Of a stretch of DNA of 64,000 bases, positions 1-48,849 are shown in pieces; the first letter of the stretch is position 1; the number at the start of each line of letters is the position of its first letter. Source of the DNA: Polynucleobacter sphagniphilus. Its GTDB lineage: Bacteria > Pseudomonadota > Gammaproteobacteria > Burkholderiales > Burkholderiaceae. The stretch lies in assembly GCF_001953355.1 (NCBI RefSeq), contig NZ_MPIY01000001.1:62001-126000 (forward strand). The letters run 5' to 3'. Under the pieces are notes generated by a model, which was not told the origin of the DNA, ran no database searches, and saw nothing but the letters and a program-made list of their open reading frames with translations. A program made the position numbers and the translations under genes.

Positions 1-213
1 TGACGCGAGCTAGTCTTATCTCTTGTAAATGACCCTGATGTAGCTTTCGCTACCTGACCCAAGAGAGAATCAGTTCAGGGGCAACCGCAATTAAGCGGCT
101 AGTGCGTAACGTTCGTCGTTAGCAGTTATTACATTCCCATTGATTTACGAGATAACGGGTCCTCGGTATGCCCTTGATGCTTTGTAATCCACGTCGAAAC
201 CATGTCGACCCCG
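1..213 (-). ncRNA. ssrA: tmRNA (transfer-messenger RNA), 3' part cut off by the window start
   Basis: Reverse complement of 91-123 reads GCT AAC GAC GAA CGT TAC GCA CTA GCC GCT TAA = ANDERYALAA-stop, the proteobacterial tmRNA tag; 5' end GGGGTCGACATGGTTTCGACGTGG matches the conserved tmRNA 5' domain; GTAGC-GAAA-GCTAC hairpin at 40-53. Confidence 0.95.
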
Positions 214-44745: not shown

Positions 44746-47382
44746 TTAAATAGTTTTTTCTTGCCCGCCGGTTTCAACAAGAACCATTGGACCTTCTGGC
44801 AGGCTAGCAGCCGGTTTGGGGGCTCTTCCTAAGTTCAGAGAGATTGGCTCTGCACTAATCTGATTCTGAGCTTCAGCATGCTTATTCGCATCGGTAGCAA
44901 CCCAAACCATGCCCGCTGATTGAACAACATGATGCAAAGGAGTTTCCTCAAGCGCCTGGAAGGACACCTTTGGAAGCTCTGGCGCTGGTTTAGCGGCCAC
45001 TTCAATTGGTGCTATTGCGTCCACTACTTGGGCTGGTGCTGTAGCTGTTTCAGTTGGGCGATTGTTTTGACGGGGCGCGCGTGGCGCTCTTTCAATTTTT
45101 GGCTCAATCGCGGGCGTGCTGACATGAAAGCTCTGCACAATATCTTTGATTGGCATAACAGAGGATGCACCCGACATTCCGGCAGGAGGTCCTGAGAAGC
45201 TTGGCGCTACAGCATTGCTAGGCGCTGTAGCTACATTCTCGTTGCTCGCATCTGTGTTGCCTTCGGTGCGCTCACCACGTTCGCGTTGACCACGTCCACG
45301 ACCACGACGATTGCGTCCACGACCACGACGCTCTTCTCCCTCGGCTGTTACTGGAGTTGCTTCGTTTGCTGGCGCAGCTTGTGTTGCTGGTGTCACTACT
45401 GCTGGCTGTTCTGGCTTTGGATTATTGCGGTTACCTTGGTTGCGGTTGCCATTGCGGTTGCGACCTTCTTGGCGAGCTTTGCCTTCAGTATTCGCAGCAG
45501 CTCCCTCAGCATGATTGGATGTGCCCTCTGCGTTGGCAGCTGGACGATCACCACGATCATTGCGTTCGCCGCGACGACCACGATTCCGATTGCGATCGCC
45601 GTTGCGGTTACTTTGGTTGCGACCACGGGGCGCGCTTGGGGCTGGTTTTGCTTCTTCCTCAGGAGCAGAGACAAAGAGGCGCTTGATAAAGCCAAATAGA
45701 CCACCAGAGCTTGCAGCGCTAGCTTTAGGTGCAGTACGGGCTGGGCGTGGCTGGCTTACTGGAGCAGGTTGATTGGGAGTAATTCCTTTAACAGCTGCCT
45801 CAGGGCGAGCTTTTAATTCTGCATCTTTGCGACTAACGGTAGTGTCAGTTTCCAATTCACGTGCAGCTTCTTCCGCCATCACATAGCTTGCCTTTTGGTC
45901 ATCCAAACGAGGATCATCATGGCGCAAGCGCTCGAGTTTGTAGTGTGGTGTTTCCAAATGCTTATTTGGGACCATCAACACATTCACTTTGAAGCGAGTT
46001 TCAATTTTAATTACTTCAGCGCGCTTCTCATTTAACAAGAATGCAGCGACTTCAACTGGTACTTGCGTATGAATCGCGGCAGTGTTCTCTTTCATTGCTT
46101 CTTCTTGGATGATGCGCAAGACTTGCAATGCGGACGACTCAGTATCACGAATATGGCCTGTGCCATTACAGCGAGGGCAAGTCACATGACTGCCTTCAGA
46201 CAGGGCGGGGCGCAAACGTTGGCGCGACATTTCCATCAGGCCAAATTTGGAGATCTTGCCCATTTGTACACGTGCACGATCATGGCGCAAAGCATCGCGC
46301 AAACGATTCTCAACGTCTTTCTGTGCCTTGCTTGACTCCATATCGATGAAGTCAATGACAATCAAGCCACCCAAGTCACGCAAACGCGCTTGACGAGCAA
46401 TCTCATCGGCAGCTTCTAAGTTGGTACGGGTGGCCGTTTCTTCAATATCAGAGCCGCGGGTAGCTCGTGCAGAGTTGACGTCAACTGAAACCAAGGCTTC
46501 GGTGTGGTCGATCACAATCGCACCGCCAGATGGCAATGGCACGGTGCGGGAATAGGCGGTTTCTATCTGATGTTCAATCTGAAAGCGAGAGAACAAAGGC
46601 ACATCATCTTGATAACGCTTTACTCGGGAGAGGTTGTCTGGCATTACTACAGACATAAATGCCTGAGCTTGCTCGTAAATGTCATCGGTATCGATCAAAA
46701 TCTCGCCGATATCAGGCTGGAAATAATCGCGGATTGCGCGAATAACCAAGCTTGATTCAAGATAAATCAATAAAGGAGCTGAGTTGCCTTTGGCTGCTTC
46801 ATCAATTGCACCCCAAAGTTGCATTAAGTAGCTTAAGTCCCACTGTAATTCAGTGGCATCACGACCAATACCGGCGGTACGGGCAATAATGCTCATGCCA
46901 TCGGGCACCTCTAATTGAGCCATTGCTTCACGCAGCTCTTGGCGATCTTCACCTTCAATGCGACGCGAAACACCGCCTCCACGTGGGTTATTGGGCATCA
47001 ATACCAAATATCGACCAGCCAAGGAGATAAATGAAGTTAAAGCCGCGCCTTTTTGGCCGCGCTCTTCTTTTTCTACTTGAACAATAATTTCTTGCCCTTC
47101 GCGCAAGGCATCTTTAATGGACGCATTGCGAACATCGATACCTTCTTTGAAATAAGTACGGGCTACTTCTTTAAATGGCAGGAAGCCGTGGCGTTCCTCA
47201 CCATAATTTACAAAGCACGCTTCAAGCGAAGGCTCAATGCGGGTAATAACACCTTTGTAAATGTTGCCTTTACGCTGTTCGCGTCCGGCAGCTTCGATAT
47301 CAATATCGATGAGTTTTTGACCATCGACGATGGCAACTCGCAACTCTTCTTGTTGAGTTGCATTGAATAACATGCGTTTCAT
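44746..47382 (-). CDS. rne: ribonuclease E
   Basis: MKRMLFNATQQEELRVAIVDGQKLIDIDIEAAGREQRKGNIYKGVITRIEPSLEACFVNYG; zinc-link TCPRCNGTG; Arg/Asn/Gly-rich C-terminal half. Confidence 0.97.
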   Translation of the reverse strand: MKRMLFNATQQEELRVAIVDGQKLIDIDIEAAGREQRKGNIYKGVITRIEPSLEACFVNYGEERHGFLPFKEVARTYFKEGIDVRNASIKDALREGQEIIVQVEKEERGQKGAALTSFISLAGRYLVLMPNNPRGGGVSRRIEGEDRQELREAMAQLEVPDGMSIIARTAGIGRDATELQWDLSYLMQLWGAIDEAAKGNSAPLLIYLESSLVIRAIRDYFQPDIGEILIDTDDIYEQAQAFMSVVMPDNLSRVKRYQDDVPLFSRFQIEHQIETAYSRTVPLPSGGAIVIDHTEALVSVDVNSARATRGSDIEETATRTNLEAADEIARQARLRDLGGLIVIDFIDMESSKAQKDVENRLRDALRHDRARVQMGKISKFGLMEMSRQRLRPALSEGSHVTCPRCNGTGHIRDTESSALQVLRIIQEEAMKENTAAIHTQVPVEVAAFLLNEKRAEVIKIETRFKVNVLMVPNKHLETPHYKLERLRHDDPRLDDQKASYVMAEEAARELETDTTVSRKDAELKARPEAAVKGITPNQPAPVSQPRPARTAPKASAASSGGLFGFIKRLFVSAPEEEAKPAPSAPRGRNQSNRNGDRNRNRGRRGERNDRGDRPAANAEGTSNHAEGAAANTEGKARQEGRNRNGNRNQGNRNNPKPEQPAVVTPATQAAPANEATPVTAEGEERRGRGRNRRGRGRGQRERGERTEGNTDASNENVATAPSNAVAPSFSGPPAGMSGASSVMPIKDIVQSFHVSTPAIEPKIERAPRAPRQNNRPTETATAPAQVVDAIAPIEVAAKPAPELPKVSFQALEETPLHHVVQSAGMVWVATDANKHAEAQNQISAEPISLNLGRAPKPAASLPEGPMVLVETGGQEKTI

Positions 47383-47757
47383 AACACTCTCCTATGGGGG
47401 AGGGTGTCGCTGCGGCGGTGCGTTAGGGGACAGGTTAGATCGCTTAAGGCAGGGCCCATGGGCGAATGGTGAGTGTGGGTCAAGCTAATCTGGGCATATC
47501 TTGCCCAGTCCACCAAGTTCAATGTTTGTTAAACCGGTGCCACACTTGACGATCGCCGCAGAGACCTCCTTTAGGTCATCAATGCAGGCGCTCGCCTGAA
47601 AACTGTCTTCTAATCGCGGGTCGCGGCATACGGCACACCAACCCTGCGCCTCATTACAACGGGGGAGGGGCAACCCCGGGAGTCTATTAAGGGCGACTCC
47701 AAGCTCCACGATTCAAACCTGACTTCAGGTTGGGATCAAGCTAATAAATTAGCTAGA
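47383..47757 (-). promoter_or_regulatory. long structured 5' leader upstream of rne
   Basis: At least five perfect-arm hairpins between a TATAAT box and the rne start: 47490-47508, GACCT/AGGTC, CAGGCG/CGCCTG, 47717-47730 and 47739-47754. Confidence 0.6.
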
Positions 47758-47763
47758 GCGTTG

Positions 47764-47769
47764 ATTATA
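47764..47769 (-). promoter_or_regulatory. candidate -10 box (TATAAT) of the rne promoter
   Basis: Reverse complement of attata; no well-spaced consensus -35. Confidence 0.45.
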
Positions 47770-47835
47770 CGGCACAAGTTGAATGACAATGGGGTATTGT
47801 TAAGTCCCTCGCCGAGGTGGCGAGAGAGATAAACT

Positions 47836-48849
47836 ATGAAATCAACACCCATTCCGAAGACCCCACAGCCAAAAACAGCCATACCTGCATCCGTTCATTT
47901 GCAGACGATTGGTCCCGAGGAGGCTGGGCAGCGCTTAGATAACTATCTTCTTCGCTGGGCCAAAGGGGTTCCCAAGAGCCACGTATACCGGATTATTCGT
48001 TCTGGCGAGGTGCGGGTCAATAAGAAGCGGGCTGAGCCGACTACTCGCTTGATTGAGGGGGACGTGGTCCGTTTACCGCCCGTTCGCTTGGCTGAACCAG
48101 CTCAGATGGCGGCAGTCAATACAGCTCAAACCAAGTCACGTGCCCGGGGTTATTCAGACAAAATGCCCATTTTGTTTGAAGACGAGGCGCTCTTAATCGT
48201 CGATAAACCACCGGGTTTGGCGGTTCATGGTGGTTCCGGGATTGCGTTGGGGGTGATTGAGACCCTGCGAATCACTCGCCCAGAGCTCAAGTTCTTGGAG
48301 TTGGTGCATCGTTTAGACCGAGACACCTCCGGGGTCTTGCTGTTAGCTAAGAAAAGAAGTGCTTTGGTTGAATTACATCGTCAAATCCGCGAAGGTCAGA
48401 CCGATAAGCGCTATTACTTGATTGCACATGGTGAAATTGTCCAGACTGCAGGGGTAATGCAGTTGAAATTTCCTCTCCATAAATACCTACTCCCTAACGG
48501 TGAGCGCCGTGTGCGGGTGGATCCGGATGGATTGCCTAGCCACACTGCCTTGCGGATCAGCAAAATCATGAAACAGGGCGACCTTGCTATTACTTTGGCA
48601 GAGGCGCAATTGAAAACAGGCCGTACCCACCAGATTCGGGTGCATTTGCAAAAATTAGGCCACGCCATTCTGGGCGACGATAAGTATGGTTTTGAGGATG
48701 AAGATAAGAAAGTAAAGTCCAAGCGCCTCTATTTGCATGCGCATTTGGCTGGGTTTACCCATCCAAGAACTGGTGAAAAAATGCGCATTGAATCACCTTT
48801 GCCGGACGAATTTACTGCCTTGATGAGTCGTTTTGAGTCACACGAGTAA
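47836..48849 (+). CDS. rluC: 23S rRNA pseudouridine synthase, RluC type
   Basis: S4-like N-terminus, HRLDRDTSGVLLLAKKRSAL, KTGRTHQIRVHLQKLGHAILGDDKYG; divergent from rne. Confidence 0.94.
   Translation: MKSTPIPKTPQPKTAIPASVHLQTIGPEEAGQRLDNYLLRWAKGVPKSHVYRIIRSGEVRVNKKRAEPTTRLIEGDVVRLPPVRLAEPAQMAAVNTAQTKSRARGYSDKMPILFEDEALLIVDKPPGLAVHGGSGIALGVIETLRITRPELKFLELVHRLDRDTSGVLLLAKKRSALVELHRQIREGQTDKRYYLIAHGEIVQTAGVMQLKFPLHKYLLPNGERRVRVDPDGLPSHTALRISKIMKQGDLAITLAEAQLKTGRTHQIRVHLQKLGHAILGDDKYGFEDEDKKVKSKRLYLHAHLAGFTHPRTGEKMRIESPLPDEFTALMSRFESHE

Follow-up and report, generated by a model that had tools for sequence, protein, structure and literature searches.

The spacer between the divergent genes rne and rluC in the window, a 64,000-nt stretch of the Polynucleobacter sphagniphilus genome, holds a real, uncatalogued structured leader of rne. 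We put at roughly 70% the probability that this conserved folded leader serves as an RNase E feedback element, doing the job of E. coli rne5 with a different structure. In many bacteria the lifetime of mRNAs is governed by RNase E, and the textbook picture of its autoregulation comes mainly from enterics; if our reading is true, the Burkholderia/Polynucleobacter leader would be a separate and structurally different solution to RNase E control, and a natural substrate for asking which folded RNA RNase E recognises. For a new RNA family, a covariance model and the aligned sequences are now available.

Locus and leader

The rne start codon (ATG) lies at 47382 on the minus strand and that of rluC at 47836 on the plus strand, leaving a spacer of 453 nt, in agreement with the approximately 450 bp of the original prediction. 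The minus-strand TATAAT box named there is present (47769-47764), and either TATAAT or TACAAT was found at the rne promoter in every aligned relative; TTGTCA and CATTGT occur upstream of it at 14 and 16 nt, respectively. Because a simple sigma-70 consensus scan of the spacer gave no full -35/-10 pair, we infer the transcription start site: the rne mRNA would begin near 47757 (minus strand), 6-8 nt past TATAAT, and its leader would measure about 375 nt. That the leader is transcribed with the mRNA is suggested by the conserved TATAAT box and by the B. cenocepacia transcript described below (PMC5688073). A search for intrinsic terminators found none in the spacer or in the leader. The six inverted repeats proposed for the leader all exist in the sequence as written. 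Near-identical 13-nt direct repeats (GGRTCAAGCTAAT) are located at both leader ends (47477-47489 and 47733-47745), and ATACGGCACA occurs at 47628-47637 and again at the promoter (47767-47776). Table 1 shows the features of the leader.

Table 1. Features of the rne leader in 5' to 3' order. Fractions are base pairs with compensatory change; those for hpA to P6 are from alignment A3.
Feature	Position	Strand	Observation
-10 box TATAAT, presumed rne promoter (TATAATCAA)	47764-47769	-	direct reading; kept in relatives
P0, 5' hairpin AGCTAAT-TT-ATTAGCT (most relatives GCCAAT-TT-ATTGGC)	47739-47754	-	98% of cells paired; 1/6, carried by the window sequence itself
P1, hairpin ACCTG-AAGT-CAGGT	47717-47730	-	3/5
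Core structured RNA, match of model R1	47545-47705	-	187.7 bits, E about 1e-55, single match in the genome
hpA, GGAGTC / GACTCC	47679-47700	-	6/6
hpB, CGGGG / CCCCG with 9-nt loop TTGCCCCTC	47660-47678	-	2/5 (GC to AU at two pairs); 91% of cells paired
Pseudoknot, hpB loop GCCCCTC (47671-47665) with GAGGCGC (47652-47646), one C-C mismatch	47646-47671	-	CG to UA
P3/P4, GGGTT / GACCC around GGT / GCC	47618-47644	-	3/4 in each helix
A/U-rich single-stranded linker, RNWUU motif AGTTT at 47604-47600	47597-47617	-	candidate RNase E cleavage/entry site
P5 (GGCGA-G-CGCC-T-GCA / TGC-GGCG-A-TCGTC) and P6 cap (GACCT / AGGTC)	47548-47596	-	8/12 and 5/5
3' domain, AGTGTGG / CCACACT around P8 (CACC/GGTG) and P7 (CTGGGCA-AGATA-TGCCCAG)	47472-47546	-	P7 5/7
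Shine-Dalgarno hairpin ACAC-C-CTCC / GGAG-A-GTGT, covering AGGAG	47384-47407	-	also in the single-sequence MFE fold

Conservation and covariation

The core of the leader (160-180 nt) has a mean pairwise identity of 96.4% among 26 close species, while its flanks drop to 84.5% on the 5' side and 73.6% on the 3' side. In 20 of these species rne codons 1-200 are 88.1% identical overall and 68.3% at third positions, so that a non-coding stretch in mid-leader is under tighter conservation than the coding DNA for the catalytic domain that follows. The original prediction had seen no convincing ORF in the spacer. A single long frame runs through the core (47709-47485, 74 aa from a GTG start). It is uninterrupted in most close relatives, as it should be if the core encoded a small protein, but stops or indels break it in 11 out of 29, its variable sites fall at codon positions in the ratio 15/11/19 with a weak third-position excess, and the base changes track the helices instead. 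Given the breaks and the weak excess the frame is probably not a gene, and we hold a small protein to be very improbable.

Three groups within the genus are divergent enough for a pairing test: group A, to which the window belongs, group B (L044, L045, L047, L048, L059, L065, L115, and L117-L120), and group C (L046, L049-L051, and L186-L200). A structure was written from the comparison of A and B and scored on a plain MAFFT alignment of these two groups that was not fitted to structure (A2). In A2, double-sided changes occur at 15 of 42 pairs, amounting to 52 cells versus 20 in the shuffled and 1-11 in the slid controls. A covariance model built from A2 with the pseudoknot left out (R1) found group C, which was outside the training set, with E values of 1e-5 to 1e-11; the matches in members L046 and L049-L051 are located upstream of rne. 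In the structure-fitted alignment of 63 matches (A3), compensatory change occurs in 27 of the 36 modelled pairs (219 cells, versus 66 shuffled and 15-41 slid). The slid control and the A2 test carry the argument, since A3 is structure-fitted and related rows inflate its counts. Compensatory change in conserved helices, a mark of structured cis-regulatory RNA, is thus found, and the original prediction, which would have failed had the stems shown neither conservation nor compensation in relatives, survives this check: the core is ultraconserved and its stems covary strongly.

Individual repeats fared differently. GACCT-AAAGG-AGGTC covaries in all five of its GACCT/AGGTC pairs, and AGCTAAT/ATTAGCT, ACCTG/CAGGT, and CTGGGCA/TGCCCAG all covary within the close group. 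As originally drawn, GGGG-TTG-CCCC (163 of 207 cells paired) and CAGGCG-AG-CGCCTG (267 of 316) are broken in many relatives, and the wider hpB and the longer stem P5, respectively, fit better. The helix closing the 3' domain is near-invariant in the close group; GUGAGAC/GUCUCAC is read from the alignment in its place in L111 and L113. At the Shine-Dalgarno hairpin 99% of the CTCC/GGAG cells are paired in the close group, where no covariation of these pairs was found. RNAalifold on the close group also offered an 8-bp pairing of AACGCTCT, just past TATAAT, with the Shine-Dalgarno region, which was rejected because half of it would precede a normal start site and its pairs show no covariation.

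Spacers rich in G+C often fold stably, and one may ask whether this is ordinary spacer DNA, folded by chance and kept only for its divergent promoters. The 376-nt leader has a minimum free energy of -137.9 kcal/mol, compared to -117.1 +/- 5.8 in dinucleotide shuffles (z -3.6), and none of 100 shuffles folds as well; conservation is highest in mid-leader and not only at the promoters; and many helices covary, the slid controls being far lower. The covariation refutes a chance fold, to which we give next to no credence.

The pseudoknot, which is not part of R1, shows one pair changing from CG to UA in 10 distinct sequences of the genus. As most of its bases are invariant in the genus, support for it there is modest. 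The C-C mismatch of group A, on account of which a strict pseudoknot pattern missed that group, corresponds to a U-A pair in group C.

Candidate function

The model leaves the linker from P3 to P5 unpaired; GC content there is 34% versus 53% in the core. RNWUU, the RNase E consensus (PMC5222698), is present in 50 of 53 distinct linkers, with 21 expected after shuffling. We favor feedback via RNase E binding and cleavage of the leader because this unpaired A/U-rich RNWUU linker is accompanied by a hairpin over the Shine-Dalgarno sequence. The leader would fold into two 5' hairpins, the core, a 3' three-way junction, and the Shine-Dalgarno hairpin, and the core (hpA, hpB with its pseudoknot, P3/P4, and P5/P6) would present the linker to RNase E. 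When in excess, the enzyme may bind the folded leader and cleave it, and the cut rne mRNA carrying a 5' monophosphate would then be broken down or translated poorly; with RNase E occupied by other RNA, the leader would survive and more enzyme would be made. The E. coli rne 5'UTR mediates feedback by RNase E (PMC3997798). Published data from relatives, including the short B. cenocepacia transcript described below, are in line with this reading. In B. pertussis, deletion of the RNase E C-terminus placed rne among the most upregulated genes (PMC8386462), although stability of the truncated mRNA could be another cause of that rise.

A structured cis-regulatory leader might instead respond to an effector other than RNase E, such as another protein or a small molecule, or function as a switch in which hpB + pseudoknot + P3 alternate with a competing helix (GGGUUGC/GCGACCC) formed by the 5' strand and loop of hpB (GGGTTGC, 47676-47670) with the 3' strand of P3 (GCGACCC, 47624-47618). 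The competing helix is the one picked by RNAalifold and has three pairs with double changes (11 cells), and nucleotide conservation exceeds what the helices need; this conservation beyond structure could reflect another ligand or an sRNA role. Against these points, the helix fails in L115 and L118 and is absent from group C, while the genetic context and the precedents point to the RNase itself. We regard a different effector as unlikely and keep RNase E feedback as the preferred reading.

Range of the element and known RNA families

Of 186 Polynucleobacter genomes, 169 contain the element according to R1, as do 140 of the 144 good ones, and a permissive second pass adds three of the four missing good genomes (143/144). 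With few exceptions there is one match per genome throughout the genus, as in the genome of the window; a structured cis-regulatory RNA is expected to occur just once, at a constant place in the 5' leader of a particular gene. The single-contig genome G376 has two tandem core copies 77 nt apart (L181, 1261-1423 and 1501-1668). The remaining good genome, G022 (L026), is a complete single-contig Polynucleobacter genome with a natural deletion of hpA to P4 plus the 5' strand of P5 and a -10 box changed to TACAAT. Since it lost hpA to P4 yet keeps rne, the core is dispensable somewhere, and the deletion provides a natural test case for leader function. Beyond the genus, R1 found nothing significant: among 300 genomes of the order, the four with a match were all Polynucleobacter. 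R1 matches inside the rne leaders of L095 and L139 stayed below significance.

In the comparison with known families, the layout shares with rne5 of enterics (RF00040) a long structured 5'UTR directly upstream of rne, at a position kept in relatives, and E. coli K-12 has the same divergent rne/rluC gene order. The original prediction had recognised no similarity to E. coli rne5, and the searches agree: with cmscan neither the window nor the spacer reached the rne5 gathering cut-off, and in a genome search none of 150 genomes of the window's bacterial family matched, E. coli being the only control that did. Conversely, R1 had no match in the E. coli rne/rluC spacer. Neither the pseudoknot nor the P3-linker-P5 layout is known from rne5. 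The rne-II RNA (RF01756), presumably also located upstream of rne as its name implies, did not reach its gathering cut-off in the window or in 20 relatives; this structured RNA is assigned to Pseudomonadales (PMC2864571). Nothing else in Rfam scored above cut-off in the window or in the 20 relatives, with the exception of a tmRNA gene (window positions 1-212, minus strand) that is cut by the window edge. Plus-strand hits to RAGATH-25 and HOTTIP_1 were far below cut-off and were set aside as chance.

The idea of an undescribed family therefore stands as far as Rfam is concerned, but a short transcript from the rne (BCAL2888) 5'UTR of B. cenocepacia J2315 has already been reported and listed among likely cis-regulatory 5'UTRs (PMC5688073). 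This discrete transcript probably represents our leader in a related species; the main text of that report gives no structure, conservation, or RNA family for it. The Burkholderiales rne leader RNA is thus not wholly unnoticed, while its structure and conservation do appear to be. The transcript, together with a core conserved above the level of a typical leader, would also suit a leader processed to a stable trans-acting RNA (sRNA or sponge) whose function the conservation reflects. The leader has no intrinsic terminator, however, and cis processing would account for the transcript just as well, which leaves a trans-acting product decidedly unlikely.

In Burkholderia, Paraburkholderia, Trinickia, and relatives, an hpB-like hairpin with a pseudoknot, a helix, and an A/U-rich linker (a GAAUU linker ending in AAAGAAUU) follow the promoter in the same order. 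The hairpin equivalent to hpB covaries, in 10 of 22 sequences the pseudoknot has changed independently from CG to UA, and the helix strands pair over a mean of 6.6 bp within species versus 3.8 bp between species. Read from sequence, this points to one ancestral rne leader common to Polynucleobacter and the Burkholderia group. More tentatively, and with more doubt than confidence, we consider an order-wide Burkholderiales rne RNA family, unrelated to rne5 and rne-II, as an independently evolved sensor whose pseudoknotted core would switch between two exclusive helices (the hpB + pseudoknot + P3 arrangement, or the competing one) and expose or hide the linker site for RNase E. Its order-wide extent is something we infer, because no single model spans Polynucleobacter and the Burkholderia group. 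A search for the rne N-terminus gave no match in five genomes of 0.2-0.5 Mb. The hpB-pseudoknot leader is kept upstream of rne in L132, which comes from G087, a Burkholderiaceae genome strongly reduced to 1.2 Mb.
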